The notes under the pieces were generated by a model that had not been told where the DNA came from, did no database searches, and was given only the letters and a program-made list of their open reading frames with translations. 64,000 nucleotides of DNA from Sphingosinicella microcystinivorans. Its GTDB lineage: Bacteria; Pseudomonadota; Alphaproteobacteria; Sphingomonadales; Sphingomonadaceae. The DNA is taken from assembly GCF_027941835.1 (NCBI RefSeq), contig NZ_CP116005.1, forward strand, positions 3,425,501 to 3,489,500. The letters run 5' to 3'. Of the stretch, positions 25,631-42,071 are shown one piece after another; the stretch's first letter is position 1, and each line of letters opens with the position of its first letter. Both the position numbers and the translations under genes were made by a program.

Positions 25631-26917
<1,287 letters not shown>

Positions 26918-26941
26918 GAACGCGGCTCCTGTACCGAAACG

Positions 26942-26965
26942 AACGGGCGCCCTCGGGCGCCCGTT
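26942..26965 (+). terminator. Rho-independent terminator after gltA
   Basis: A perfect 10-bp stem (AACGGGCGCC 26942-26951, GGCGCCCGTT 26956-26965) with loop CTCG lies 25 bp after the gltA stop. The T-run is short and broken (T, CCG, TTT), so it may also act on minus-strand transcripts from the kinase gene. Confidence 0.7.
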
Positions 26966-26989
26966 TCCGTTTCAACATCATGCCTTTGG

Positions 26990-28450
<1,461 letters not shown>

Positions 28451-28455
28451 GGCCG

Positions 28456-29598
28456 CTACGCGGCGCCCTCGTTCAGATCGTCGATCGCCTGCCGAAGCCC
28501 GGCGTCGAGCTGCCAGTACTGGAGCACGCGGCGGGCGGCGGCGACATCGAGATCGTCGTGAAGCCTGAGGATTTCCGCGAGCGCCGAGGGCGGACGCGCG
28601 CGGGCGGCGTTATTGAGCTCGCCGAGCACGAGCACGAGCGACGCCGTGGCGTCGCGGCTGACGTCAACCGCCTTCGCGAGCACGATGAAGCTCTCGCCCG
28701 CCGGATCGGTGACGATCCTCCACACCGTGTTGAAGGCGATCTTTGCGCGCGCGGCAAGCGCCGCGGTGAACAGGCTGAGCCGCCCCTGACGCAGCGTGCG
28801 GAGCAGGAAGCCGTCCGTCAGCTCGCCGAGCTCGCCGAGGCGGCGCGCGAGCTGGAGCGCGCGCGACTGCACGGACTGCGTGTCGTCGTGCTCCACCATC
28901 GCGCGCTTCGCCGCGCGCTCGATCATCGGATCGAGCACGGCCTGGTCGATGACGAAGCCCTTGAGGACATGGCGGCGGAGCGCGGCCGCCACCCACCAGC
29001 AGATCTCGTGCGCGAGATCGGCGGGGAGGTCGTTCTGCGTCAGCAGCGGCTGCTGGAACTGGCCGTTGCGCTTGCTCTCGGCGACCAGAAGCTCCATCGC
29101 GCGGCGCGACAGCACGGCATCCTCGGTGCGGATCAGGCCTTCGAGCACGTCGTCCTCGCTGCCCTTGAGGCCGCGCTCGGCGAGCGCCTCGGTCAGCGGC
29201 GGCGAGACGATCTCGCGCAGCGCGATCGCCATACGGTGCTCCTCGGCGCACTGGATGACGATGTCCATCAGCGCGGGATTGCGGACCACGCCGCTGCGTT
29301 CGAGCACGGGCCGCGCCACCTCGATGCTGTCGCTCGCGAGCCGGGCTTCGAGATCGGGCTGCGACGCGGGCGAGCGGGCGAGCGCTTCGACGAGGTGCCG
29401 GCGCACCTCCATCTCGACCGTGCCAAGCAGGCGCCCGAGCACATCCGTCATCAGCGCGCGCTGCTGATCGGTGAGGCGCTGCGCGGCGGGCAGGAACAGG
29501 TCGGTGATCGCGTCCGCAAGCTGCGCCCGCGCCGCGCCGGAACGGCCGGCGGCGAGACCCAGCAGCGCCTGAACGTCGATTGGCCGATCCAGCGGCAA
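28456..29598 (-). CDS. DUF2336 domain protein
   Basis: The 380-residue protein is almost all helical, with HEAT-like repeats in its first 200 residues (LMTDVLGRLLGTVEMEVRRH, LVEALARSPASQPDLEARLA). The pattern is that of the alphaproteobacterial DUF2336 family, whose biochemical role is not established. No membrane span or signal peptide is visible. It is the promoter-proximal partner of the PAS histidine kinase (5 bp apart), so it may modulate that kinase. A CtrA-like half-perfect site lies about 60 bp upstream. Confidence 0.8.
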   Translation of the reverse strand: MPLDRPIDVQALLGLAAGRSGAARAQLADAITDLFLPAAQRLTDQQRALMTDVLGRLLGTVEMEVRRHLVEALARSPASQPDLEARLASDSIEVARPVLERSGVVRNPALMDIVIQCAEEHRMAIALREIVSPPLTEALAERGLKGSEDDVLEGLIRTEDAVLSRRAMELLVAESKRNGQFQQPLLTQNDLPADLAHEICWWVAAALRRHVLKGFVIDQAVLDPMIERAAKRAMVEHDDTQSVQSRALQLARRLGELGELTDGFLLRTLRQGRLSLFTAALAARAKIAFNTVWRIVTDPAGESFIVLAKAVDVSRDATASLVLVLGELNNAARARPPSALAEILRLHDDLDVAAARRVLQYWQLDAGLRQAIDDLNEGAA

Positions 29599-29659
29599 GG
29601 CAACCCCTCTTTGGTGCGAACCCGTGTCTTTTCTCGGAACCGAACCTAGAAGGATGCGC

Positions 29660-29675
29660 CTAAAATTGGATTAAC
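29660..29675. promoter_or_regulatory. CtrA-like box upstream of the DUF2336-kinase operon
   Basis: CTAA-N7-TTAAC differs from the CtrA consensus TTAA-N7-TTAAC at one base. It lies 62 bp before the DUF2336 start. One site matched by eye; binding is unproven. Confidence 0.3.
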
Positions 29676-29687
29676 CCTGACTGGTTC

Positions 29688-31151
29688 CTAGAAGCGGGTG
29701 CGCCAGCCGATCTCGATCGCGGTCTTCGCATCGCGGACGCCCGGCGTGTTCGGCGCGTCGGTGTCGTAGCGGGCCTCGAGGCTGATGTCGCCGAACGCGG
29801 TGGGCAGCTCGGTGCCGATCTCGAAGGCGTTGTAGGTCTCCCGGCTCAGCGAGACGTTGTTGTTGCGGAAGTTGCCGGTCTTGTTGATGTCGACGCGGCG
29901 GTAGGTGCCGTAGAAGCGGCGGTTCTTCGCGTCGGTGATCGAGAGGCCCGCGGTCCAGAGTTCGCTGTCGCCGTCGAGGCTGTGGCCGAAAGCGCGGTCG
30001 CGATAGGTGAAGCCGTCGAAGTATATGAAATTGCTGTACATCGTGCCCGGATAGCGGGCCGAACCCATGAACTTCACGGCCAGCGTGTCGGACCATTCGC
30101 CAAGCACGGTCCAGCTTGCGCCGTTGCTGCCGATCGGACCCGAAAGCGTGAGGCCCGCCATGCGCGAGAACTTGTCGATGAGGACGTTGTCCTCGTCCTC
30201 GGCTTCCCATTCCGTGTAGGCCTGAACCGCCACGTTGCCGATCATGCGCGTGTAGCTGATGTCGAACCCGGCGATCTGGTTGCCGGGCTCGTTCACGGTG
30301 CCGGTGTTGTCGGCGTCGCCGATGCCGACGACGGCGTCGAAGATGGTGCCGAGCCCGCAGGGACGGTTCTTGCCGCAGAGTTGAAGCCCGCGGTTGAGGC
30401 CGATCTCCAGCCCCGGCGCAGGCTCGAAGGACAGGCGCATCCCGGCGATGGCCGGGTTGTCATAGTCCTCGCGCTTTTCGGTGGCGATGCCCGCGAAGAT
30501 GTCGAGCCGCCACGGGCCGAACCAGCGCAGCACGGGGAAGTCGATCGGTTCGGGCACCAGCCGCTTGATGCCGACGCGCGGGATCGGGCGCGCGTTCGTG
30601 GAGAAAAGGAGCGCGCTGTCGTGGCCCGGCCCCCACCACGTGTCGACATAGCCGCCGTAAAGCGCCCAGTTGCCGACGGGGAGCGCCAGCGTCGCGGGCT
30701 CGAAATGGACGTCGCGGCCCTGCTGGCCGTCGCGCCAGCCGACGCCGTAGGAGACGTAGAGCTTGCCGACCTCGTGCTCGGCGCGGACGGTGACGTCGCC
30801 GTCCTCGCGGGCGGTGTCGCCGAAGTCGCGCACCACCGATGCCCGGTTGGTGGCGCGGGCGCGGACCTCGTAGCGGCTCTTCTGGTTGTCGCGCCCGGAA
30901 AGGATCGCGAGGCGGCGGACGGCGGCGCCGAGATGCGGCGGCAGCGCCTGCCCCTGCGCGCGCTCCAGCCCCTCGGCGACCTGCGCCCACGGCAGCGGCC
31001 ACGCGTTGACGGGGCCGCGGATGAGCCCCGCGGCCTTCAGGAGCTCGACATCGCTGCGGACCTGACGGTCGCCGGCTTCGAGCCACGGCCCGGCGGCGGC
31101 GGGAGCCGCCGACAGCAAGACCGCAGCAACGGCAGCGCCAAGAGACCTCAT
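29688..31151 (-). CDS. Wzi-family outer-membrane capsule assembly protein
   Basis: The 487-residue protein has a signal peptide (residues 1-20, LLSAAPAAA), a short helical N-terminal domain (about 21-75), and a beta-barrel rich in alternating polar and aromatic strands, ending in EIGWRTRF with the C-terminal aromatic typical of outer-membrane proteins. LRWFGPWRLDIFAGIATEKR and GGYVDTWWGPGHDSALLFS resemble the capsule assembly protein Wzi, a lectin-like barrel that anchors capsule at the cell surface. No capsule glycosyltransferase lies nearby. Its start overlaps the stop of the nucleotidyltransferase gene (ATGA), which ties it to the inositol cluster. Confidence 0.8.
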   Translation of the reverse strand: MRSLGAAVAAVLLSAAPAAAGPWLEAGDRQVRSDVELLKAAGLIRGPVNAWPLPWAQVAEGLERAQGQALPPHLGAAVRRLAILSGRDNQKSRYEVRARATNRASVVRDFGDTAREDGDVTVRAEHEVGKLYVSYGVGWRDGQQGRDVHFEPATLALPVGNWALYGGYVDTWWGPGHDSALLFSTNARPIPRVGIKRLVPEPIDFPVLRWFGPWRLDIFAGIATEKREDYDNPAIAGMRLSFEPAPGLEIGLNRGLQLCGKNRPCGLGTIFDAVVGIGDADNTGTVNEPGNQIAGFDISYTRMIGNVAVQAYTEWEAEDEDNVLIDKFSRMAGLTLSGPIGSNGASWTVLGEWSDTLAVKFMGSARYPGTMYSNFIYFDGFTYRDRAFGHSLDGDSELWTAGLSITDAKNRRFYGTYRRVDINKTGNFRNNNVSLSRETYNAFEIGTELPTAFGDISLEARYDTDAPNTPGVRDAKTAIEIGWRTRF

Positions 31152-31858
31152 GCAGCACCCTTCCCTTCCGCGCCGAGCCAGCGCTCGGCAATGCCGAGCG
31201 CCCGCGCGTCATCGACGTCGAGCCAAGCGCAATCTCCGGTTTCGACGGCGCGCGCAAGCCCCGAGGCGGCGAGCGCGGCGACGCCTTGCGACAGGCTGGG
31301 CGCGGAAAGCCCGGCGAGCGCGTCGAACAGCGGCCTTCCCACGGAAAAGACGCCGGTGTCGTAGCCGTTGAACGGGGCGAGGCCCTTGCCGATGGCGACG
31401 ATGGCGTCGCCTTCGGTCCGCACGCGGGTGACGTCCTCCTCGTCGATCCAGTCGTGGCCGATGCGGCGGTCGACGCCGAGCAGCAGCGCGCCGTCATCGG
31501 CGGGAGCCTGTGCGACAGTGCGGTAGAGCACGGGATCGACGAGGTGGTCCGCCATCACCAGCAAGGCGCGCGCCTCGATGAAGGGCGCGGCCGCCAATGC
31601 CGAGACGCCGTTCGGGAGCGCGGGGTCTGCGACCGTCACGGTGCGGACGGCAAGCGGCAGGGTCCATCCGGCCAGCGCTGCGGCGACTTCTTCCGCGCGG
31701 TGCCCCAGCACGACCGTGACGTCATCGACGCCCGCCTCGGCGAGACGCAGCAGCGTGTGCAGCAGCAGCGGCCGCCCGGCGACGAGCGCGAGCGGCTTCG
31801 ACGGCGCATGGCTGCTGAGCCGGCTGCCGAAACCGGCGGCAAGCACGATGGCCTGCAC
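31148..31858 (-). CDS. Sugar/inositol-phosphate nucleotidyltransferase
   Basis: The 236-residue protein has the NTP-transferase fold with the nucleotide loop LAAGFGSRLSS and the Lys of SKPLALVAGRPLL, followed by VLGHRAEEV and a metal-site region LLVMADHLVD. Relatives activate sugar phosphates or, in thermophiles, inositol 1-phosphate with CTP. Next to inositol-3-phosphate synthase and two CDP-alcohol phosphatidyltransferases, the likeliest substrate is inositol phosphate with CTP; that is inference from context. The start is GTG at 31858. It is separated from the synthase by a palindromic repeat and coupled to the Wzi-like gene. Confidence 0.75.
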   Translation of the reverse strand: MQAIVLAAGFGSRLSSHAPSKPLALVAGRPLLLHTLLRLAEAGVDDVTVVLGHRAEEVAAALAGWTLPLAVRTVTVADPALPNGVSALAAAPFIEARALLVMADHLVDPVLYRTVAQAPADDGALLLGVDRRIGHDWIDEEDVTRVRTEGDAIVAIGKGLAPFNGYDTGVFSVGRPLFDALAGLSAPSLSQGVAALAASGLARAVETGDCAWLDVDDARALGIAERWLGAEGKGAA

Positions 31859-31872
31859 GGGCGCCGTGTCCT

Positions 31873-31976
31873 AGAGCGGGCTGCGTGATTCCGGAATCAC
31901 GCAGCCCGCTCCACCTCTTCGTGGTCGCATCGTTCTTCGCGGAAAGCCGGTTCCCACTTTTCCGCACGATGCTCTA
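31873..31976. repeat. Palindromic intergenic repeat between nucleotidyltransferase and inositol-phosphate synthase genes
   Basis: A perfect 38-bp palindrome (31874-31911, half-site GAGCGGGCTGCGTGATTCC) is followed by a segment (31912-31976) containing TCGCATCGTTCTTCGCGG and GGTTCCCACTTTTCCGCA. The second part resembles the intergenic repeat common in alphaproteobacteria, recalled from memory. Its last bases supply the TAG stop of the synthase. The palindrome could act as a transcript stabiliser or attenuator within the operon. Confidence 0.75.
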
Positions 31977-33080
31977 GTGCAGCTTGCCGCCGCCGGCGAT
32001 GAACGCCTCCAGCGCGGCGAAGGCAAGGTCGTCGCTGGTCTGGCGCGGCGGGTGCTTGCAGAAATAGCTGGCGGCCGCGTCGATCGGCCCGGCGAGGCCG
32101 CGCTCCATCGCGAGCTTGGCGCAGCGGATCATGTCGATGGCGACGCCCGCCGAGTTGGGGCTGTCCTCGACCGACAGGCGCAGTTCGAGGTTCATCGGCA
32201 CGCCGCCGAACAGTTGGCCTTCCATGCGCAGGAAACAGACCTTGTTGTCGTTCTGCCACGCCACGTAGTCGGACGGGCCGACGTGGATGTTCTCGTCGTC
32301 CATGCGGCGCTCGGCGACCGACTGCACGGCCTCCGTCTTCGACTCCTTCTTGGAGGCGAGGCGCGAGCGGTTCAGCATGTTGAGGAAGTCGGTGTTGCCG
32401 CCGGTGTTGAGCTGGTAGGTCCGGTCGAGCTTCACGCCGCGCTTCCTGAACAGGTCCGTGAGCACGCGGTGGACGATGGTGGCGCCGAACTGCGCCTTGA
32501 TGTCGTCGCCGATGATCGGCAGGCCCGCATCCTTGAAGCGCTTCGCCCACACGGGATCGCTGGCGATGAACACCGGGATGTTGTTGACGAACGCGACCCC
32601 GGCTTCGAGCGCGCATTCGGCGTAGAACTCGGTGGCTTTCTGGCTGCCGACGGGCAGGTAGTTCATCAGCACGTCAGCGCGCGTCTCGCGCAGCACGCGG
32701 ACGACCTCGTCCTTGTCGGTCTCCGCCGCGTCCGCCACGAGGAAGGTGCGATCCTCGGGGTAGTCGGCCATGTGCTCGCCGACGCCGTCGAGAACGCGGC
32801 CCATGCGGACGGTCGCGCCGGTTTCCGGCACGTGATCGCAGAACACCGTGGTGCAGTTCGGCTTCGCGAAGATCGCCTCGGCCATGTCGAGGCCGACCTT
32901 GCGGCTGTCAACATCCCATCCGGCGACGAAACGGATGTCCTTGGGGCGATAGCCGCCCAGATCCCAGTGAAGCAGGCCGATCTGCTCGTTCGCGCCGCCG
33001 TTCTGATAGTGGGCGACGCCCTGAACAAGCGAACTCGCACAATTGCCGACACCAACGACAGCCACTCTTACTTCATACAT
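31974..33080 (-). CDS. ino1: Inositol-3-phosphate synthase
   Basis: The 368-residue enzyme turns glucose 6-phosphate into inositol phosphate, using NAD. It opens YEVRVAVVGVGNCASSLVQG (NAD-binding loop), has NYLPVGSQKATEFYAECAL, YQLNTGGNTDFLNMLNRSRL (the N-T-D-F motif with catalytic Lys residues following) and LSVEDSPNSAGVAIDMIRCA. It is the short form found in actinobacteria and archaea rather than the 500-residue eukaryotic form. Uncommon in proteobacteria, it marks this cluster as making inositol compounds. The stop codon is provided by the adjoining repeat. Upstream neighbour: the fused CDP-alcohol phosphatidyltransferase, 42 bp away. Confidence 0.92.
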   Translation of the reverse strand: MYEVRVAVVGVGNCASSLVQGVAHYQNGGANEQIGLLHWDLGGYRPKDIRFVAGWDVDSRKVGLDMAEAIFAKPNCTTVFCDHVPETGATVRMGRVLDGVGEHMADYPEDRTFLVADAAETDKDEVVRVLRETRADVLMNYLPVGSQKATEFYAECALEAGVAFVNNIPVFIASDPVWAKRFKDAGLPIIGDDIKAQFGATIVHRVLTDLFRKRGVKLDRTYQLNTGGNTDFLNMLNRSRLASKKESKTEAVQSVAERRMDDENIHVGPSDYVAWQNDNKVCFLRMEGQLFGGVPMNLELRLSVEDSPNSAGVAIDMIRCAKLAMERGLAGPIDAAASYFCKHPPRQTSDDLAFAALEAFIAGGGKLH

Positions 33081-33122
33081 CGGAAAGATCCTGAGACGCG
33101 TCTACTGCGCGGTTGAAGACGA

Positions 33123-34481
33123 TCACTTAGCGCTGCCAGCAGAATCGGGCAAGAATGTGTAGGCTGTCCTTGCGAAGTTTGCGGCGATCCGATCGCTGTT
33201 TGCGCTGCCATATTCCTGTAACCGAACGAAGAAGCGCGCCTGCATGACGAAGAAGGTGATCGTGCTGTACGCCGCGATCATCGCAAAGCCTGCATACCAC
33301 GCGCCGAACGCCGCAAACGGCAAAAGGCTCCAGAAAAACGTGTTGCGGCGGCCCGCGACGAGACGGAACCGGCGCTCGAACGCGCCGGCATCGTCGATCT
33401 GCCTGCCGGTGAAGCGGCGGAAGAACTCGCCCTGCACGGCTTCCGCGAGCGCGAAACCCACGGTGATCGCGGCGAGCGGCCACGCGCCCCCGTGTCCGAC
33501 CGAATTGAACCAGTATGCGAGCGCGGCGAACCAGCCGTACTCGACGACCTTGTCCGCGACATGTTCGAGATCGCCCCATTTCGAGAACTCGACGCGCGCG
33601 CGGGCGAGCTTGCCGTCGACGCCGTCGAGCGGCCCGATGACGAGCGCGAGGACGAGCCCCACCCAGAGATGGCCGAGCGCGAACGCCGCCATCGCGGCGA
33701 GCCCGAGCAGGAACACGCCCACCGAGATCATGTTCGGCGTCAGCGGCGTCGGCAGCAGCAGGCGGGTGAGCAGGTTCTCGACCGGCGGATGGATGAAGCG
33801 CGCCGGCCAGTCGAGGATGCCCTTCTGCGCCGCGGCCAGCGCCTCGGACGTCGCGGCGTCGGCGGATGCCGCATCGGCGGCGCGGCGCCATTGCAGCGGC
33901 ACCTCGCGCCGCCGCGACGGGCAATAGGCCGGGATGCGCGCGACCTCGACGGGCGTGTGCGGCCCCTCCCCCAGCGCCGAGCGCACCAGCGTCGCCTGCA
34001 TGTCCCAGTCGCCGAGGCGGCCCGCGACGCTGCGGACGAGGCGCCCCGGAAAGCGCGCGAGGCCCGCGAAGAACCGGTCGGAGGCGATCCGCTCCGCCGC
34101 GATCGGGCGCTCGTCCGCCTCAAGCCAGACGCCGAGCACCACGTCTCCGGATGCGCCCGCGACGGCGGCAATGGCGCGCTCGTCCGCAACCAGCCCCTCG
34201 TCGAGCGAGAGCACGTTGTCGTCGTCGCGGATCGCGCCGCGCACGCCGTCCCCGCCGTGCACGACCTCGATGCCGGGCGAGGCGCGGCGCGCGCGGTCGA
34301 GCGCGGCGGCGAGGCGCGGCGTCACGCGCTCCACCATGACGACGACGCGCTCGGCGCCCGCGCGGCGGCACTGGCGAATCTGCCGGTCCACCGAGGCGAT
34401 TCCCGTGATGCCGAGCGCGGCCACGGGCTCTTCGGCCCCGGCGCTGAAGTGATGGGCATAGAGTAGCGCCACAAGCGCCAT
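33123..34481 (-). CDS. CDP-alcohol phosphatidyltransferase fused to a degenerate nucleotidyltransferase domain
   Basis: The 452-residue protein has two parts. Residues 1-200 look like a nucleotidyltransferase fold (ITGIASVDRQIRQCRRAGAE, RVVVMVERV), but the N-terminal LLYAHHFSAG lacks the G-x-G-x-R loop and catalytic Lys. Residues 225-452 form a membrane transferase with motif DGVDGKLARARVEFSKWGDL: Asp286, Asp289, Gly290, Ala293, Arg294 and Gly303 fit the CDP-alcohol pattern, but the second Asp pair reads His307/Lys311, or Glu306/Asp310 if one residue is missing. I start at the ATG at 34481, 7 bp after GGAG. The layout recalls bifunctional inositol-phosphate cytidylyltransferase/phosphotransferases. 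The probable product is an inositol phosphodiester or lipid; this is inferred. Confidence 0.75.
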   Translation of the reverse strand: MALVALLYAHHFSAGAEEPVAALGITGIASVDRQIRQCRRAGAERVVVMVERVTPRLAAALDRARRASPGIEVVHGGDGVRGAIRDDDNVLSLDEGLVADERAIAAVAGASGDVVLGVWLEADERPIAAERIASDRFFAGLARFPGRLVRSVAGRLGDWDMQATLVRSALGEGPHTPVEVARIPAYCPSRRREVPLQWRRAADAASADAATSEALAAAQKGILDWPARFIHPPVENLLTRLLLPTPLTPNMISVGVFLLGLAAMAAFALGHLWVGLVLALVIGPLDGVDGKLARARVEFSKWGDLEHVADKVVEYGWFAALAYWFNSVGHGGAWPLAAITVGFALAEAVQGEFFRRFTGRQIDDAGAFERRFRLVAGRRNTFFWSLLPFAAFGAWYAGFAMIAAYSTITFFVMQARFFVRLQEYGSANSDRIAANFARTAYTFLPDSAGSAK

Positions 34482-34570
34482 CGACGTCTCCGGATCTGAC
34501 TGGATGGCGGACAATAGGGGCAAGCAAGCGGACTTGCCAACTCTCCCCGGAGAAGCGCACATCGCAGGCG

Positions 34571-35395
34571 ATGCATTCCACGGTCGACACGGCGGGCGGC
34601 GGACGCCCGCGCGGCATAGAGGAGCCGCTGAACCTCGCGCTTGTTCACCCGGCGTCGCGGGCGCTGCTGCCGGTCGCCGTGCGGCTCCGCGTTCCGCCGA
34701 ACGCCATTTCGATCGCCGGGATCGGCTTCGGCCTTGTCGCCGCGTGGGCCTATTTCCACTACGAACGCCCGGCGATGGCGCTCGCCGGATTCGCGGCGAT
34801 GCTGGCGTGGCACGTCCTCGACGGGCTCGACGGCATGACGGCGCGCGCGACCGGGCGGACCAGCGATTTCGGGCGCTTCCTCGACGGCTTCTGCGACTAC
34901 AGCGTGTTCATTCTCGTCTACGTGAGCCTCGCCGTCGCGGCGGGCCACGAAGCGGGGCTCGGCGTCAGCCTCGCGGCGGCGGCGCTCGCGGGCGCGGCGC
35001 ACGTCGTGCAGGCCGCGTGGTACGAGCTTCAGCGCGAGGTGTTCATCCGGCGCAGCGCGGGCAAGCCCGGCTTCGCCGCCCGCGACGCCGTGGGCGGCTT
35101 CCTGGAGGTCGGCTACAACGCGCTTCAGGCGCGGCTGATGCCCGGCGCGCAGGCGCTCGACGCCGCGCTCGGCGCGGACCCGGCGCTGCGCGTCCGCTAT
35201 GCCGAAACGCTGCGCCCGGTGCTGTCGGCCGCCGCGATCCTCGGCGCGACCGGGCGGACGCTCGCCATCTTCATCGCCTGCCTCGCAGGCAATCCGCTCT
35301 GGTACTGGCTGTGGGAGATCGTCGGGCTCAGCCTTGCGGCGCTCCTGATCGAGCGCGCCCGGCGGGTGCGCGAAGCGGCGCTCCTAGAAGGCTGA
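34571..35395 (+). CDS. CDP-alcohol phosphatidyltransferase with intact motif
   Basis: The 274-residue inner-membrane enzyme has about six spans and the complete motif D84-x2-D87-G88-x2-A91-R92-x8-G101-x3-D105-x3-D109, read from HVLDGLDGMTARATGRTSDF and GRFLDGFCDY. Such enzymes displace CMP from a CDP-activated donor with an alcohol acceptor; the pair is unknown here. It is divergent from the fused enzyme, with 89 bp between starts, so both may share a regulatory region. With the inositol genes alongside, a role in inositol phospholipid or phosphodiester synthesis is plausible. Its 3' end overlaps the Hpt gene by 12 bp on the other strand. Confidence 0.85.
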   Translation: MHSTVDTAGGGRPRGIEEPLNLALVHPASRALLPVAVRLRVPPNAISIAGIGFGLVAAWAYFHYERPAMALAGFAAMLAWHVLDGLDGMTARATGRTSDFGRFLDGFCDYSVFILVYVSLAVAAGHEAGLGVSLAAAALAGAAHVVQAAWYELQREVFIRRSAGKPGFAARDAVGGFLEVGYNALQARLMPGAQALDAALGADPALRVRYAETLRPVLSAAAILGATGRTLAIFIACLAGNPLWYWLWEIVGLSLAALLIERARRVREAALLEG

Positions 35396-35692
35396 AAACC
35401 GCGCGATCTCGGCGTCGAGACGCGCGAGCAGCGCGCTGTCGCCCGGCGCCGAAAGCTCGGCGAGCAGCGCGATCGCGGCAATGGCTTCCGCACCGATGGC
35501 CTGCGCCGCGCCCTTCAGGCGGTGCGCCGCCGCCTTCCATCCGGCACGATCCCGCGCGGCGCGCAGATCGGCCGCATAGGCGGGGAGATTCGCGCGGAAC
35601 TCCGACATCAGGTCGTCGAACAGCGCCGTGTCGCCGCCGGTGATCTCCAGCAGGCGGTGCGGCAGGAAAGCGGGGGCGGATTCGGGGTTCAT
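35384..35692 (-). CDS. Hpt-domain phosphotransfer protein
   Basis: This 102-residue single-domain protein has the helical bundle motif AAHRLKGAAQAIGAEAI, with His57 as the probable phospho-accepting residue in H-R-L-K-G-A-A. Hpt proteins relay phosphate between receiver domains of two-component systems. I start at the ATG at 35692 (MNPESAPAFL); a TTG ten codons upstream is also possible. No kinase or regulator is adjacent; the nearest kinase is the PAS enzyme at 27-28 kb. It is divergent from the coiled-coil membrane protein, whose gene starts 134 bp away. Confidence 0.82.
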   Translation of the reverse strand: MNPESAPAFLPHRLLEITGGDTALFDDLMSEFRANLPAYAADLRAARDRAGWKAAAHRLKGAAQAIGAEAIAAIALLAELSAPGDSALLARLDAEIARFSAF

Positions 35693-35825
35693 GCGGCCAT
35701 GTTCGGCGATCAATGTTAACAAACTGTCGACGAATCCCGATTGTCGGGCTGTCCTGTGCCCGAAGGCGATGATAGACAGAGGCGCGAGGGGTTATCACAC
35801 ACAGGTTTCGCGGGGGTCGTGCACC

Positions 35826-38180
35826 ATGAATCCAGTCGGTCGGCGGTCGTTTCCGGAAAAGCTTCCGCCGGACCACGCATGGCAGCAGGCGTCCGCCGCA
35901 CCCGACGCGGAGCCGGATACCGCGACGCCGATGAAGCGCCTGCGCCAGATGGACGACGAGGCCGCGGACGACCCCGTGCCGACCTTTTCGAGCCGCGTGC
36001 TGCTGGTCGCCTCGCTTGCCTCGCTCGCGTGGCTGGCGCTTGCCGCCGCGGTCGTCTGGCTGATCGCCGGTTCGGCGGGCATCGGCGCGCTGACGCTCAC
36101 CGAATGGGCGGGCGTCGCGGGCGGCGTCGCCGCGCCGCTTTCGGCGATCTGGCTGATCGCGCTGGTCGCCGCGCGCGTGTGGCCGGGGCAGCAGCGGGAA
36201 ATGCTGGCGCAGATCGAGGCCGCCGAGGAACGCTTCGCGCTCACCGCGCGCGAAACCCGCACGCAGCTTGAAAGCATCGACGCAGTGCTGGCGGCCGTGA
36301 CCGCGCGCGTCGAGGGGCTGCGCAAGGTGTTCGCCGACGAGGTCGAGGGCTTCGTCACCGCCACCGACGCCGCCGTCCACCGCACGCGCACGCTCGCCGG
36401 AACGCTCGCCGAGGACCGCGCCGCGATCGACGCCAGCGCCGCCGCGCTCGCGGAAAGCGGCGACAAGGCCCGCGCCAGCTTCGATTCGCTCGCAAGCGCC
36501 CTCCCCGAAGCCGAGGCGCAGGTGAACCGCATCGCGGGCCTGCTCGCGACGAGCGCCACGGACGCGCGCACGCAGCTCCAGGAGACCGAGGACCTGCTCG
36601 CCGCGGTGTGGACGCGGAGCGAGGAAGCCGGGGCGCAGGCGAAGGCCGCGACCGAAAGCCTCACCGGCGTCATTTCCGCCATCGCCGCTTCCGCCGCGGA
36701 CGCGGAGGGCCGTCTCGGCGCCTATGCGGCCGCGCTCGAGGCGAGCGGCGACGCCGCGCTCGCGAAGACCGGCGAGGCGCTGGAAGCGACGCGCGTCGGC
36801 GTCGAGGCGCAGACGGCGGCGCTCGCCGCCGCGATCTCGCGCACCTCGCTCGACCTCGAAGACATCGGCGGCCGCGCCATCGAGACCATCGCGGGGCGGA
36901 TCACCGCCATCGCCGAGCATGTCTCCGAGCTGAGCAGGCGCATCGCCGAGCAGGACGCGGGCAGCCGCGGCTTCCTCGACACGGTGGAGCGCGGCTTCAG
37001 CGTGCTCGACGCCAAGCTCGGCAACGCCGCCAATTCGAGCGAGAGCGTGCTCGCCAGCCTCTCCGCGCGGATCGCGCAGGTGCGCGGCGAGATCGATTCG
37101 CTCGCCGCACCGCTCGGCACGACGCGCAGCGCGGCGAAGGAGATCGGCGACGCGCTCGGCGCGGTGCGCGCGGCGACCGAAGAGGCGCTCGCGTCGCTCG
37201 CCGAGGGCGTGCCGTCGGGGGCCGAAAAGGGCCTCGGCGCCATCGACGCGCTGCGCGGCTCGGTGGCGAACCTGTCGCAGGACATCGACCGCGTGTCCGA
37301 GCGCGCCGCCGCCATCAACACGCCGATCGCAGCGGGCCGCCGCGCCATCGACGAGCTGCTCGACGGGCTGGAGGACCAGCGCGAGAGCCTCGAGGCCGTG
37401 GTCGGCAAGGTGCGCGGCGAGATCGAGACGGCGCGGGGCATCCTCGCCGGCGTCGAGCAGTCGGCGGAAAGCACGGCGCTCAGCGCGACGACGCAACTGA
37501 TCGACGCGCTCGGGCGCGTGCGCGAGGTCGCAGCGCAGACGGCGGGCACGGTGAAGAGCGCGCTCGAAGCGGTCGTCGACGAGGCGCGCGAGGCGCTGTC
37601 GAAAGCGTCGCGCGACGCCGTGCGCCAGAGCGCCATCGAGCCGGTGGAAACGCAGATCAAGGCGCTGGAAGCGGCGGGCGCGCGCAGCGCCGACGCCGCG
37701 CAGGCCGCCGCCGAGCGGCTGTCGCGCCAACTCGTGTCGGTCGCCGAGACGGCGGCCGCGATCGAGACGCGCGTCAACGAGGCGGACGCGCACCTCGACG
37801 CCGCGCTCAGGAAGGACATCGGCCGCCAGTCCGAGCTGCTCGTGGAAGCGCTCAACAGCGCCTCCATCGACATCGCCAAGGGGCTGTCGGCGGAAGTGAC
37901 GGAAACGGCGTGGAAGCAGTACCTCGCCGGCGAGCGCGGCGTGTTCTCGCGCCGCGCCGTGCAGATCCTCGCGAACCGCGACGCCAAGGAGGTCGCGCGC
38001 CGCTACAGCGAGGACGCCGAGTTCCGCGACGGCGTGCGCCGCTACATCCACGACTTCGAGGCGATGCTCCGCCGCTTCAACGCCGACCGCGACGGCAACG
38101 CGCTCTCCATGACGTTGCTGTCGTCGGACCTCGGCAAGCTCTACGTGGCGCTGGCGCAGGCGACCGAACGCCTGCGCTGA
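35826..38180 (+). CDS. Large coiled-coil membrane protein of unknown function
   Basis: The 784-residue protein has a 58-residue acidic cytoplasmic start, two hydrophobic segments (about residues 59-82, VLLVASLASLAWLALAAAVV, and about 91-115), and then over 550 residues of alanine-rich helix with heptad-like spacing of Ala, Leu, Ile and Val and many Glu/Arg, such as TARETRTQLESIDAVLAAV. A more globular C-terminus follows (KQYLAGERGVFSRRAVQILA, YIHDFEAMLRRFNADRDGNA). The general form resembles methyl-accepting or polar scaffold proteins but lacks the chemotaxis hairpin motif. I do not recognise a named family. A structural or scaffolding role is a guess. Confidence 0.85.
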   Translation: MNPVGRRSFPEKLPPDHAWQQASAAPDAEPDTATPMKRLRQMDDEAADDPVPTFSSRVLLVASLASLAWLALAAAVVWLIAGSAGIGALTLTEWAGVAGGVAAPLSAIWLIALVAARVWPGQQREMLAQIEAAEERFALTARETRTQLESIDAVLAAVTARVEGLRKVFADEVEGFVTATDAAVHRTRTLAGTLAEDRAAIDASAAALAESGDKARASFDSLASALPEAEAQVNRIAGLLATSATDARTQLQETEDLLAAVWTRSEEAGAQAKAATESLTGVISAIAASAADAEGRLGAYAAALEASGDAALAKTGEALEATRVGVEAQTAALAAAISRTSLDLEDIGGRAIETIAGRITAIAEHVSELSRRIAEQDAGSRGFLDTVERGFSVLDAKLGNAANSSESVLASLSARIAQVRGEIDSLAAPLGTTRSAAKEIGDALGAVRAATEEALASLAEGVPSGAEKGLGAIDALRGSVANLSQDIDRVSERAAAINTPIAAGRRAIDELLDGLEDQRESLEAVVGKVRGEIETARGILAGVEQSAESTALSATTQLIDALGRVREVAAQTAGTVKSALEAVVDEAREALSKASRDAVRQSAIEPVETQIKALEAAGARSADAAQAAAERLSRQLVSVAETAAAIETRVNEADAHLDAALRKDIGRQSELLVEALNSASIDIAKGLSAEVTETAWKQYLAGERGVFSRRAVQILANRDAKEVARRYSEDAEFRDGVRRYIHDFEAMLRRFNADRDGNALSMTLLSSDLGKLYVALAQATERLR

Positions 38181-38184
38181 GCCC

Positions 38185-38625
38185 TCAGCTGAGGCCCGGT
38201 TGCCAGGCCTTGAGCTGGTTGGTCGCGGTATGGACCTGCCAACCCTTGTAGAAAATCCAGCCGCCGAGCGCGATGAAGATCACGCCGATGAATATGGAAA
38301 GCAGCGGGATGCCGAGAAGAATCACGATGGCCGATAATATCAGCGGCATCGTGGTCGGCAGGTAATAATCCGCCCCGGTGGTGAGGTTCCTGAGCCCCAC
38401 GGCTTCCAGCGTGCCGTTTTTCTCCGTACCCACGGCCGCGATGCGGTCGCCGTCGCTGATCGAAGGCAATTGCCGGGTCTTGAACGAAACGGGCTTCCCA
38501 TCGAGGCGCAGGGTGAAGATCTGATTCTTGATCGCCTGCGGACCCGTCCGGCTATTGCCCCCGGTATAGGTGTAGTCCGAGCCCTGAGTGATATTGCTTG
38601 CCGTGCCCTGAATCAGTGTCGCCAT
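38185..38625 (-). CDS. Small membrane protein of unknown function
   Basis: The 146-residue protein has a soluble N-terminal half with beta-rich sequence (IFTLRLDGKPVSFKTRQLPS, DRIAAVGTEKNGTLEAVGLR), suggestive of an OB-like fold, and two hydrophobic segments near residues 92-125 (LILSAIVILLGIPLLSIFIG, VIFIALGGWIFYKGW). A strong ribosome-binding site, AGGAGGT, lies 5 bp before the ATG at 38625. The gene is convergent with the coiled-coil gene (stops 4 bp apart). I do not recognise the family. Confidence 0.75.
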   Translation of the reverse strand: MATLIQGTASNITQGSDYTYTGGNSRTGPQAIKNQIFTLRLDGKPVSFKTRQLPSISDGDRIAAVGTEKNGTLEAVGLRNLTTGADYYLPTTMPLILSAIVILLGIPLLSIFIGVIFIALGGWIFYKGWQVHTATNQLKAWQPGLS

Positions 38626-38696
38626 ATCTCACCTCCTGCCTGTCCGGAGGCTTATGGTTGCATCATTACGGACTTCAAACAACCGGTCCCGCGCGG

Positions 38697-38945
38697 CTAT
38701 TCCGGCATGAAGTCGAGGTAGCCCGCCCGGGCGAGGAACCAGAAGCCGACCATCAGCACCGCCGAGATCAGCGTCGTCCAGAGCAGCTTCTTCGCCAGCA
38801 TCGGACGCGCCGGGGCGCTGTCGGCCTGTCCCTTCACCTTGTCCTCGCCCGCCTCTTCGGCGGTGCGCACGCCGAAGGGGAGCACGGCGAACAGCGTGAC
38901 CGTCCAGATCAGGAGGTAGACGGCGAGTATCGAGCCCCAGCCCAT
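38697..38945 (-). CDS. DUF1467 family membrane protein
   Basis: The 82-residue protein has two membrane spans: residues about 6-26 (ILAVYLLIWTVTLFAVLPFG) and about 53-72 (LLWTTLISAVLMVGFWFLAR). The VRTAEEAGEDKVKGQADSAP loop with a following PARPMLAKK is characteristic of alphaproteobacterial DUF1467. Function is unknown. The start overlaps the rnj stop by one base, so it is the last gene of the nuo-birA-coaX-rnj run. Confidence 0.85.
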   Translation of the reverse strand: MGWGSILAVYLLIWTVTLFAVLPFGVRTAEEAGEDKVKGQADSAPARPMLAKKLLWTTLISAVLMVGFWFLARAGYLDFMPE

Positions 38946-40594
38946 CAGCCCTTGATCCTCGTGACCGTGACCTCGGTGATCGGCTTCTTGCCCGTCCAGT
39001 CGCGCGCCTTGCGGCGGACGGCGACGCGGATCGCCTCGGCGAGCGCGTCTTCATTGCTTCCGCGCGCCTTTGCCGCTGCCTCGCTCGCGGCAGTGACGCA
39101 GTCGTCGATGAACTCGTCGCGGTCGTCCTCGACCGGAACGCCGTGCGACTGCACCTGCGGCGGCGCGAGCAGCCGGCCCTTGCCGTCGAGGACGACGAAC
39201 ACGGCGATGAGGCCGTTGTGCATCATGCGGCGGCGGGCGAGCATGGTGGCGCCGTCCGCGGGGAGGATGACGTCGCCGTCGAGGACGAGACGGCCGACGG
39301 GCTCGTGGCTGATGATCTGCGGCTTCCCCGGCGCGAGGCGGATGGCGCTGCCGTTCACGGGCACGACCGCCTCCGGCACGCCGACGCGGCGGGCGAGGCG
39401 CGCGTGCTCCTCCATGTGGCGGCGCTCGCCGTGGACGGGGATGGAGATTTGCGGGCAGATCCAGCCGTACATCGCTTCCAGCTCCGGGATGCCGGGGTGG
39501 CCGGAGACGTGGACGTGCGCCTGACGATCCGTGATGATCTCGACGCCCGCGGCAGCAAGCGCGTTCTGCACGCGGCCGATGGCGATCTCGTTGCCGGGAA
39601 TCTGCTTCGAGGAATAGACGACGAGGTCGCCGCGTTCGAGCTTGATGTGAGAATGCTCGCCCTCGGCGATGCGGGAAAGCGCGGCGCGCGCCTCGCCCTG
39701 CGCGCCGGTGGAGACGATGAGCAGCTTGTCGCGCGGGAGGTTCATCGCCTCCTCCTGCGACACGGTGGGCGGGAAATCGGTGAGGTAGCCGACGCTTTTC
39801 GAGACTTCGAGGATGCGGTCGAGCGAACGGCCGACCACGCAGATGCGGCGGCCCGTGTCCTTCGCGACCTCGCCGAGCGTGTGCAGGCGCGCGGCGTTCG
39901 AGGCGAAGGTGGTGACGAGCACCCTGCCCTTGTGCCCGGCGATCACCTTGTCCAGCCCCTCGCGCACGCCCGTCTCGCTGCCGGACGCCTCCGGGTTGAA
40001 GACGTTGGTGGAATCGCCGACGAGCGCGAGGATGCCCTCGTCGCCGAGCGCGGTCAGCTCCTCGGCGGTGGACGGCACGCCGAGCACGGGCGCCTCGTCC
40101 AGCTTCCAGTCGCCGGTGTGGAAAATCTTGCCGTAGGGCGTTTCGATGAGGAGCGCGTTGCCTTCGGGGATCGAGTGCGCGAGCGGCACGTAGCGGCACT
40201 TGAACGGGCCGAGGTTCACCTCACCTTCCAGCGGCACGACGTTCAGCTCGACGTCGCGCTCGATGCCCTCCTCGATCAGCTTCTTGCGGATGAGGCCGGC
40301 GGTGAACGGCGTGGCGTAGAGCGGCACGTCGAAGTCGCCGACGAGATAGGGAATCGCGCCGATGTGGTCCTCGTGCCCGTGCGTGAGCACGATGCCGAGC
40401 AGGTCCTTCTGCCGGTCCTCGATGAACGACAGGTCGGGGAGCACCAGCTCGATGCCCGGCAGGTTGGGGTCGGCGAAGGTCATGCCGAGATCGACCATGA
40501 TCCACTTGCCGTTGCAGCCGTAGAGATTGACGTTCATGCCGATCTCGCCGGAGCCGCCGAGCGGCAGGAAGATCAGTTCTTTTCCAGGCTTCAA
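38945..40594 (-). CDS. rnj: Ribonuclease J
   Basis: The 549-residue metallo-beta-lactamase/beta-CASP nuclease has endonuclease and 5'-exonuclease activity in RNA maturation and decay. The zinc motif is LGIVLTHGHEDHIGAIPYLV (H-x-H-x-D-H), with FHTGDWKLDEAPV and LVGDSTNVFNPEASGSE following. The beta-CASP part includes VLVTTFASNAARLHTLGEVA and LLIVSTGAQGEARAALSRIA, and HVSGHPGIPELEAM completes the site. The length is typical. Alphaproteobacteria usually carry RNase J beside RNase E. It overlaps coaX as ATGA. Confidence 0.95.
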   Translation of the reverse strand: MKPGKELIFLPLGGSGEIGMNVNLYGCNGKWIMVDLGMTFADPNLPGIELVLPDLSFIEDRQKDLLGIVLTHGHEDHIGAIPYLVGDFDVPLYATPFTAGLIRKKLIEEGIERDVELNVVPLEGEVNLGPFKCRYVPLAHSIPEGNALLIETPYGKIFHTGDWKLDEAPVLGVPSTAEELTALGDEGILALVGDSTNVFNPEASGSETGVREGLDKVIAGHKGRVLVTTFASNAARLHTLGEVAKDTGRRICVVGRSLDRILEVSKSVGYLTDFPPTVSQEEAMNLPRDKLLIVSTGAQGEARAALSRIAEGEHSHIKLERGDLVVYSSKQIPGNEIAIGRVQNALAAAGVEIITDRQAHVHVSGHPGIPELEAMYGWICPQISIPVHGERRHMEEHARLARRVGVPEAVVPVNGSAIRLAPGKPQIISHEPVGRLVLDGDVILPADGATMLARRRMMHNGLIAVFVVLDGKGRLLAPPQVQSHGVPVEDDRDEFIDDCVTAASEAAAKARGSNEDALAEAIRVAVRRKARDWTGKKPITEVTVTRIKG

Positions 40595-41361
40595 AGCCTG
40601 TTCCTTTCATCAATAATCGTAAGGCCGCGCACCGTGAGATCGACGTCCACGACATCGATCACGCTAGTGTAGGGCTCGAACAGAACGGCGAGCCCGCCGG
40701 TCGCCAGAACCTTCATCGGCCCCGTGGCCTCCGCCTTGAGGCGGGCGACCAGTCCCTCGATCATCGCGAGATAACCGAAGAAGATGCCCGATTGCATCGC
40801 GGACACCGTATCGTAGCCTTTCGCCTTGCCGCCCTTCGGCGGCGCGACGGCAACGCGCGGCAATTGCGCGGCGGCGACATAGAGCGCCTCCGCCGACAGG
40901 TTGATGCCGGGCGCGATGATGCCGCCCGTATAGGCATTGCCGACGAAGATGTCGAATGTCGTCGCGGTGCCGAAGTCGATGATGATGAAATCGCCTTCGT
41001 GGCGGGCGCCCACCGCCACGCAATTGACGAGACGGTCCACGCCGACCTGCTCCGGATGCGCGACCTCGATGCCGACGCCGAGGTCGAGATCCTTGGTGAC
41101 GACCAGCGGATCGATGCCGAACCCCCGCCGCGCCATGCGTTCGAGATTGAACAGCGTGGTGGGAACCACGGTGGACATCACCACGCGGTGGACCTTGCGG
41201 CGGTCGACGCCGTCGATCTCCATGAGCTGGGTGAGCCAGACCATGTATTCGTCCGAGGTCCGCGACGCCTGCGTGGAAATCCGCCAGCGGTGCACGATCT
41301 CGCCGTGGTCCACCACTGCGAACATCGTATTGGTGTTGCCGACATCAATCGCGAGCAGCAT
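40591..41361 (-). CDS. coaX: Type III pantothenate kinase
   Basis: The 256-residue ASKHA-fold kinase phosphorylates pantothenate, the first step to coenzyme A. Motifs are the phosphate loop LLAIDVGNTNTMFAVVD, VDRLVNCVAVGARHEGDFII, IDFGTATTFDIFV and TGGIIAPGINLSAEAL, with VLATGGLAVLFEPY near the end. It starts at the ATG at 41361, overlapping the birA stop by one base (TGATG). It belongs to the nuo-birA-coaX-rnj run recurring in alphaproteobacteria. Confidence 0.95.
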   Translation of the reverse strand: MLLAIDVGNTNTMFAVVDHGEIVHRWRISTQASRTSDEYMVWLTQLMEIDGVDRRKVHRVVMSTVVPTTLFNLERMARRGFGIDPLVVTKDLDLGVGIEVAHPEQVGVDRLVNCVAVGARHEGDFIIIDFGTATTFDIFVGNAYTGGIIAPGINLSAEALYVAAAQLPRVAVAPPKGGKAKGYDTVSAMQSGIFFGYLAMIEGLVARLKAEATGPMKVLATGGLAVLFEPYTSVIDVVDVDLTVRGLTIIDERNRL

Positions 41362-42071
41362 CAGGCCCGATCCCCCAATGTGAACACTTCGCCCGCGTGA
41401 ATGGGGCGTAAAGCCCCGTCCGGCAAGCGCAGAAGCAGCGCGCCGTCCGCCGCCAGTCCTTCGAACGTCCCGCCGAGATCGGCGTTCCCGAGGCGCGCGA
41501 CGATGGGCTTGCCGATCCCGGCGGCAGCGCCGAGCCAGTCCGCGCGCGTCGCGGCGAAGCCCTCCTCGCGCCAGCGGCGGCGGTGCGCGGCGAAAGCCTC
41601 GGCGAGCGTTTCGCACGCCTCGCGCGCGGACGGCGGCACGATGCCCGCCGCCGCAAGGCTCGTCGCCGGGCGCTCGGTGCCTTCCGGGAAATGCGCGAGG
41701 TTGAGACCGACGCCGACGATGACGCCCTCGGCGTGGCCTTCGAGCAGGATGCCCGCGAGCTTCACGCCGTCCAGCAGCAGGTCGTTCGGCCATTTGAGCG
41801 ACAGGCGGTCCCGCGGCACCCAGCGGGCGACGGTGTCGAGCAGCGCGTTGGCGGCCACGAACGAGAGCTGCTGCGCCGCGCCCTCCCCCGGCTGCGGCAC
41901 CGCGAAGGTGCTGGCGAAGAGGTTGCCGATCTCCGACGTCCACGCCCGCGCGCGGCGGCCTCGCCCCGCCGTCTGGCGATCGGCGCGGACCCACAGCCCG
42001 TCCTCCGGGTGCTCGGCGATCCAGTCGTTGGTGCTGCCGGTCTCGGCGAGATCGACGATGCGAACGCTCAT
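41361..42071 (-). CDS. birA: Biotin--[acetyl-CoA-carboxylase] ligase
   Basis: The 236-residue enzyme makes biotinyl-AMP and attaches biotin to carboxylase carrier domains. The ATP/biotin motif is QTAGRGRRARAWTSEIGNLF, with LSLKWPNDLLLDGVKLAGIL and GVIVGVGLNLAHFP following. The N-terminal DNA-binding domain of the enteric BirA is absent, so it is a ligase only and not a repressor. Its start overlaps the nuoN stop (ATGA). Confidence 0.94.
   Translation of the reverse strand: MSVRIVDLAETGSTNDWIAEHPEDGLWVRADRQTAGRGRRARAWTSEIGNLFASTFAVPQPGEGAAQQLSFVAANALLDTVARWVPRDRLSLKWPNDLLLDGVKLAGILLEGHAEGVIVGVGLNLAHFPEGTERPATSLAAAGIVPPSAREACETLAEAFAAHRRRWREEGFAATRADWLGAAAGIGKPIVARLGNADLGGTFEGLAADGALLLRLPDGALRPIHAGEVFTLGDRA

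Follow-up and report, generated by a model that had tools for sequence, protein, structure and literature searches.

A fused CDP-alcohol phosphotransferase with a conserved Glu variant of its motif in a candidate inositol-lipid cluster of Sphingosinicella microcystinivorans, and its motif-less relatives

Introduction

What can a two-domain protein do when one domain has lost the active site of its fold and the other departs from a catalytic signature that has been called absolutely conserved (PMC4634129)? The question is raised by a gene, here FUS, in Sphingosinicella microcystinivorans, whose genome is a single contig of 4.53 Mb (NZ_CP116005.1). We analysed a window of 64,000 nucleotides (contig positions 3,425,501 to 3,489,500; coordinates below count from its first base), in which FUS occupies 33123..34481 on the minus strand. 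It joins a pseudo-nucleotidyltransferase domain (residues ~1-180) to a CDP-alcohol phosphotransferase domain (~225-427). The initial annotation had read it as a bifunctional cytidylyltransferase/phosphotransferase in which one activity moved to a separate gene.

Results

FUS combines two predicted folds

The FUS frame runs from an ATG at 34481 to a stop at 33123 and encodes 452 aa; a longer in-frame ORF extends to 34562, and homologues favour the start at 34481. A promoter/terminator scan gave one promoter-like site ~30 bases upstream of this start, a weak hint, and an Rfam scan of positions 26000-42000 returned nothing over thresholds. The closest named relatives of the locus are from Sphingosinicella (93-94% identity). 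An AlphaFold2 model of FUS, built from 39 aligned orthologues (mean pLDDT 92.3), was aligned with VIA-align over its full length to the archaeal IPCT-DIPPS 4mnd as the top match (Z 26.1, rmsd 4.9, 375 residues) and then to AF2299 (Z 25.4, rmsd 3.5, 329 residues), which is also the best PDB sequence match. PIPS structures, chimeras that carry the N-domain of AF2299, reached Z 20-22. Taken alone, the N-domain of the predicted model matched GlmU, MurU and IspD with Z 17-18 over ~185-205 residues, so it is not an unrelated fold. According to the model, the N-domain has the fold of a nucleotidyltransferase but not its active site, and the C-domain adopts the six-helix CDP-alcohol phosphotransferase fold. 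Frame, model and motifs together bear out the fused protein described in the initial annotation, including its N-terminal domain that keeps the fold and lacks G-x-G-x-R and the following Lys. Against PF01066 FUS scored 34.7 bits, above the curated cut-off of 22; it fell far below the cut-off for NF041135, the IPCT/DIPPS fusion family (42.1 bits, cut-off 580), and below that for NF045883, phosphatidylinositol phosphate synthase (42.3 bits, cut-off 170).

A Glu variant of the CDP-alcohol motif is invariant within one clade

The FUS motif reads D-x2-DGKLAR-x8-G-DL-E-Hx2-D, with D286, D289, G290, A293, R294 and G303 all present. It departs from the eight-residue signature D1xxD2GxxAR...GxxxD3xxxD4 in that D3 is Glu306 and the spacing from G to D3 is one residue shorter, and on these grounds we class FUS as a variant that would work like the PF01066 family, not as a standard member. 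Two readings of the altered second Asp pair had been put forward. Profile alignment to AF2299, with a single gap, paired E306 with its third Asp and D310 with its fourth, which upholds Glu306/Asp310 with a one-residue deletion; the pair His307/Lys311, the ungapped reading, was set aside. In the canonical signature, D1 to D3 bind a metal and D4 probably serves as the base (PMC4634129). By the alignment, all four positions remain acidic in FUS, one of them as Glu, and Glu306 would support catalysis.

E306, H307 and D310 are invariant in 9/9 aligned orthologues, down to 46% identity, as are D286, D289, G290, A293, R294, G303 and R378-R379-N380; R373, R378, R379 and N380 are common to 10/10 full-motif FUS proteins and 9/9 canonical paralogues. 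GDLEHxxDK occurs in 27/27 named loci, which were found by a contig scan with the peptide patterns AQKG[CI]LDW and PLDGVDGK, a scan that selects for the first Asp pair and not for E306/D310. With three further loci (G000, G017 and G038), Glu for the third Asp together with the one-residue deletion was present in 30/30 distinct loci keeping the first Asp pair, and this identical motif rules out a sequencing error or a pseudogene in the window genome. The window genome and six relatives together hold 32 PF01066 places, and in the motifs compared FUS is the sole case with a non-Asp third signature residue; one other place (L226) also fails the strict PF01066 pattern, solely through a shorter loop. 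The alignment suggested by the initial annotation therefore identifies Glu-Asp as a conserved variant that is standard within one clade, and no known family combining it with a known different substrate was found in a search of part of PF01066.

Sixteen of the 27 loci come from Sphingosinicella, Polymorphobacter, Glacieibacterium, Sandaracinobacter, Sandaracinobacteroides, Sandarakinorhabdus or Thermaurantiacus; two are from Novosphingobium, six are labelled just Sphingomonadales/Sphingomonadaceae and three just Alphaproteobacteria. We take the genera behind the 16 loci to be Sphingosinicellaceae, a placement that for part of them follows PMC12210278.

FUS lies among genes for inositol phosphate and its activation

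Next to FUS on the minus strand is a predicted inositol-phosphate synthase gene (MIPS, 31974..33080; PF01658 124.8 bits; TIGR03450), whose nearest NCBIfam model, mycothiol_INO1, scored 460.6 bits, under its cut-off of 638. Beyond it lies NTP (31148..31858, minus strand), the separate intact NTP transferase that the initial annotation had recognised two genes away. G9, G11, R13, K21 and D104 of this IPCT-type cytidylyltransferase are invariant in 8/8 aligned proteins. Its profile matched the IPCT structures 2xme, 4mnd and 4jd0 best (E 5e-28, 4e-27 and 2e-22), the next being GlmU at 2e-12, and its score against NF041135 was 90.6 bits, far under the cut-off of 580. By its sequence, NTP retains the catalytic Arg, Lys and Asp, at positions named for IPCT in PMC12275187 and transferred to NTP by motif, and its closest solved relatives are IPCT enzymes. 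Divergent from FUS and starting 89 bases away is CAP (34571..35395, plus strand; PF01066 44.7 bits), a second, canonical CDP-alcohol phosphotransferase with the motif DGLDGMTAR-x8-GRFLDGFCD and a score of 34.6 bits against NF045883, below the cut-off of 170. The last gene of the inositol cluster encodes a Wzi-family outer-membrane protein (29688..31151, minus strand; PF14052 226.3 bits). The slot is flanked downstream by a frequent neighbour, a DUF2336 protein (28456..29598, minus strand; PF10098 176 bits), and by a sensor histidine kinase (26990..28450, minus strand; HATPase_c and HisKA over cut-off). On the other side lies C1 (35628..38180, plus strand), a large predicted coiled-coil membrane protein given as the listed ORF, scanned from 35817 and with a provisional start, for which a Pfam scan returned no family over its cut-off.

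MIPS adjoins FUS in 27/27 named loci (in L104 as a 27-residue piece at the contig end), NTP is near FUS in 25/27, CAP in 26/27, and Wzi in 15/27, two of these on the opposite strand; linkage within one clade counts as one event, and linked genes are not independent observations. Elsewhere in the window's own genome, we observed a canonical FUS paralogue, possibly CpgA-like (3810013-3810705 of G000:C1; L121 8669-9775), and a second, weaker IPCT-like nucleotidyltransferase (G000:C1:4490610-4491083; 81 bits), perhaps CpgD-like.

The initial interpretation stood in part. The fusion with a dead domain, the intact IPCT-like enzyme nearby and a pathway that would logically use both agree with it: the G-x-G-x-R...K site is missing from 10/10 full-motif FUS proteins and present, with Lys-Pro, in 8/8 separate NTP proteins. 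An originally bifunctional FUS and the relocation of one activity were not supported. Of 289 class genomes searched for FUS relatives, 14 had matches with E no higher than 1e-20, and nine proteins of two paralogue groups (C and D) were used for comparison. They have canonical Asp motifs, and their N-parts, several of which are homologous to the FUS N-domain by BLAST (L083 and L078, for example, over nearly the full length), likewise lack G-x-G-x-R in 9/9 cases. Accordingly, the decay of the N-domain may be older than the FUS gene, judging from these sequences, and a relocation could not be traced. When the profiles of FUS and the neighbouring NTP were compared, they matched just in part, over residues 22-111 of FUS at a probability of 72, so we do not argue for the origin of one from the other.

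Most relatives have lost the transferase motif

A profile of 25 motif-less orthologues matched 111/119 family genomes, and one protein was taken per genome; G099, which has just a paralogue, and G007, whose match falls in two frames, were excluded. Among the resulting 109 proteins, 10 carry the full motif and 99 have lost it: none of the four acidic positions is kept in 79 of these, one in 18 and two in 2, and beyond the full-motif members none retains both D286 and D289. The letters G-x-G-x-R occur within the first 60 residues of 11 of the 99, never then followed by Lys-Pro. No stop lies inside the match in 107/109 (G048 and G102 have one in-frame stop each), and the gene is present in most genera sampled (tally 90/96). 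C1 is found in the stretch around 101/109 FUS genes and the histidine kinase around 87/109; such shared neighbours and the single full-length match per genome rule out that the motif-less forms are a different, non-orthologous gene. CAP accompanies 9/10 full-motif genes and 0/99 motif-less ones, NTP 8/10 versus 0/99, MIPS 9/10 versus 1/99 and Wzi 7/10 versus 2/99, where 69 of the 99 motif-less loci were read in 5-8 kb stretches only. The predicted model of a motif-less representative (pLDDT 92.4) retained the domain and helices, with 4mnd and AF2299 as best structure matches. On its sequence, motif-less FUS is a widespread, retained double pseudoenzyme.

As a side observation, the DUF2336 and histidine kinase genes (26990-29598 in the window) and C1 (35628-38180) often stay at the slot despite motif loss. 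In two loci, L048 (G056) and L049 (G052), Wzi is adjacent to a motif-less FUS, with two related ~175 aa ORFs upstream and a ~700 aa ORF downstream.

A quick tree was drawn with the motif columns removed and rooted on paralogue C; many of its forks are open, and it carries no bootstrap. In it, a single clade (SH-aLRT 99) holds 94 of the motif-less proteins, and G012, G040, G052 and G056 (SH-aLRT 90) and G063 (88) are placed among full-motif proteins. The motif was apparently lost three times on the drawn tree, of which the starred branches alone force two; a firm count of at least three losses is weakened accordingly.

Constraint lies mainly on the dead domain in motif-less proteins

In 32/32 disjoint motif-less sister pairs (31 from the large clade and one, G052/G056, from outside it; some rest on weak forks), the dN of the N-domain was below that of the membrane domain. 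Over the 21 unsaturated pairs, the median dN/dS by a simple Nei-Gojobori count, in which many pairs are saturated, was 0.34 for the N-domain and 0.57 for the C-domain; the N-domain was lower in 20 of them, and the C-domain value was below 1 in 18 and not below 1 in 3. Mean pairwise identity is 0.40 (N) and 0.64 (C) in the full-motif clade and 0.33 and 0.55 in paralogue C, and the order is reversed in the motif-less clade (0.315 and 0.19). Among full-motif sister pairs (n=3), dN was lower in the C-domain in two and slightly lower in the N-domain in G000/G085. Constraint has flipped onto the dead N-domain in the motif-less forms, hinting at a non-catalytic job.

The reading of motif-less forms as decaying, functionless pseudogenes, whose family-wide retention would mean little, could draw on their long branches and fast-evolving membrane half, with its dN/dS not below 1 in 3/21 unsaturated pairs, and on the split frame of G007 and the in-frame stops of G048 and G102. 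We regard it as very improbable, given the uninterrupted match in nearly all members, the lower N-domain dN in every pair with medians under 1 for both domains, the confident full-fold model and the retention across genera. A search of an open-licence library turned up no paper on a pseudoenzyme of such kind, which is no proof of absence elsewhere.

The MIPS-NTP-CAP trio and FUS do not always travel together

With 196 bits or more taken as a strong NTP match, 15/119 family genomes have one, and in every one of them CAP and MIPS are present too; 18 further genomes give weak matches of 75-102 bits. Full-motif FUS occurs in nine of the 15; in the tenth full-motif genome, G097, the contig ends inside MIPS. 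G072 carries these genes at three separate sites and lacks none of them. Four genomes (G002, G008, G036 and G078) have the trio elsewhere, with another PF01066 place of intact canonical motif beside CAP; three of these extra genes were read, and their products, of 364-420 aa, are extended at the N-terminus. Next to the clusters of G036 (L196) and G078 (L198) stand glycosyltransferase genes, with ABC transporter genes at G078, and similar-looking ORFs, judged by eye, lie near those of G008 (L197) and G002 (L199). Together with Wzi in the window cluster, the flanking glycosyltransferase and ABC transporter genes point to the cell envelope. These clusters apart from FUS (L196-L199) possibly serve an inositol-linked surface polysaccharide.

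In G040, MIPS, NTP and CAP are kept and the FUS motif is lost, with 4 PF01066 places and none with a fusion-sized frame; G010 (89% complete) likewise has the trio and a motif-less FUS, with 3 PF01066 places. In neither genome was a second transferase like those of G002, G008, G036 and G078 seen. Active FUS is therefore not always needed with the trio, and strict coupling of an intact motif to the presence of the trio is contradicted by G040, G010, G036, G008, G078 and G002. MIPS occurs in 32 genomes, 17 of them without a strong NTP match, from which it follows that MIPS has other uses in the family. In L201 (G010) and L206 (G017), MIPS genes apart from FUS stand beside ORFs that resemble NAD-dependent epimerases by eye, another possible use of inositol phosphate.

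Discussion

From the gene families and the linkage of FUS, MIPS, NTP and CAP we infer a CDP-inositol lipid pathway, with its substrates, step order and product, and FUS is probably part of a pathway making inositol-containing lipids. MIPS would make inositol phosphate, the separate IPCT-like NTP would activate it to CDP-inositol, and the two transferases, FUS and CAP, would either transfer phospho-inositol or attach a lipid phosphate to inositol phosphate, yielding an inositol-containing envelope lipid. The metal site of FUS would consist of D286, D289 and Glu306, with Asp310 as the base, and its N-domain would be a dead cytidylyltransferase retained for a structural role or to bind a partner. 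Most of the relatives examined lack the cluster at the slot and have lost the transferase motif, the gene persisting as a double pseudoenzyme. No phosphatase gene was seen in the cluster, which counts against the pathway. On balance we favour, with moderate confidence, FUS as a membrane phosphotransferase in an in trans inositol-lipid pathway with its dead N-domain kept, and most relatives as double pseudoenzymes under selection mainly on the N-domain.

FUS could already be a pseudoenzyme in the window genome, a regulatory or scaffold subunit with an inactive Glu variant, CAP alone transferring phospho-inositol; on this view FUS would have the kind of role that its motif-less relatives must have. 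The replaced third Asp with its shortened spacing would fit, as would the two genomes that keep the trio beside a motif-less FUS; a dead site, however, is not expected to keep its residues invariant in all aligned orthologues, nor the transferase domain to be the more conserved one in the full-motif clade, and we think this unlikely. The product might instead be di-inositol phosphate, a soluble solute, with FUS as a DIPP synthase that has become separated from its cytidylyltransferase. NF041135 is the lowest-E NCBIfam match of both NTP and FUS (for FUS tied with the PIPS model), and MIPS lies within the cluster. Two different CDP-alcohol transferases and the Wzi protein suggest an envelope component, however, as do the glycosyltransferase and transporter genes beside the unlinked clusters of relatives and a FUS paralogue of another alphaproteobacterium in a sphingolipid-type cluster, and a solute seems improbable to us. 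We give as little credence to a head group other than inositol, be it glycerate or a further phospho-alcohol, on the model of the CpgD/CpgA sphingolipid pathway. A canonical FUS paralogue does lie in a cluster resembling the Caulobacter CC_1152-CC_1168 region, and CpgD itself resembles IPCT (PMC12275187), but MIPS adjoins FUS at every named locus and the NTP profile prefers IPCT structures, there being no CpgD structure among the matches to compare.

Returning to the favoured inositol-lipid reading, we extend it tentatively, and with more doubt than belief: most sphingomonads would keep at one slot a protein with both domains dead, under selection mainly on a cytidylyltransferase domain with a role of its own, possibly in signalling, nucleotide sensing or the building of complexes and perhaps together with DUF2336 and the histidine kinase, and the Sphingosinicellaceae would keep the ancestral inositol-lipid cluster with its Glu-type transferase. 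The inositol-lipid pathway so far missing from Sphingomonadales would then be encoded by clusters of this type. According to the available text of a 2022 study, Novosphingobium acidiphilum makes an inositol-like sphingolipid and neither known cluster was found there (PMC9246714). The locus offers concrete candidate genes for inositol lipids in Sphingomonadales and a natural, invariant Asp-to-Glu variant of a signature called absolutely conserved (PMC4634129). It also presents a gene that is retained although its transferase site has gone, apparently in three lineages, with selection shifting to an already dead domain, and a non-catalytic role of cytidylyltransferase-like domains becomes testable by simple deletion.

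Among known systems, the CDP-alcohol phosphotransferase AF2299 of Archaeoglobus (PDB 4o6m, 4o6n, 4q7c), with its cytidylyltransferase-like N-domain, has the same domain order and full-length fold as FUS. It carries the canonical Asp signature in the matched stretch, whereas FUS has Glu at D3 and one residue fewer, at ~20% identity in the structural alignment. IPCT-DIPPS (4mnd; NF041135) resembles FUS in fusion and fold, and the neighbouring NTP is an IPCT homologue, but FUS itself lacks the IPCT signature and scores far under the family cut-off.

The paralogues of groups C and D resemble FUS in joining an N-domain without signature to a transferase and in sharing R373, R378, R379 and N380. One of these paralogues (L125) is accompanied by genes for an AMP ligase, an epimerase-type reductase, an acyl carrier protein, an aminotransferase, a phosphoesterase, two LptF/G proteins, a GNAT protein and an NTP transferase, content that matches the description of the Caulobacter CC_1152-CC_1168 region (PMC11324152), and by this content paralogue C would be the CC_1159/CpgA equivalent. 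With an NTP transferase nearby, L125 gives the pairing of a fusion with a separate cytidylyltransferase a likely precedent, and a dead N-domain is not peculiar to FUS. In the Caulobacter CPG2 sphingolipid pathway, CC_1159/CpgA is served by a separate cytidylyltransferase, CpgD, much as NTP stands beside FUS (PMC11324152, PMC12275187). CpgA has the canonical DD..DD motif and lies in a sphingolipid cluster, and phosphoglycerate, not inositol, is concerned, with no MIPS noted for that region in the available text of these papers; FUS, in contrast, has the Glu motif and lies in an inositol cluster. Closest in gene content is the alternative inositol-lipid cluster of Bacteroides/Prevotella, which, like the FUS cluster, combines MIPS, an NTP transferase and a CDP-alcohol transferase, with CDP-inositol as the proposed donor (PMC9246714). 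As far as that source describes it, the Bacteroides/Prevotella cluster, from a different phylum, has a HAD hydrolase, of which none was recognised beside FUS, whereas the FUS cluster has two CDP-alcohol transferases, one of them fused.
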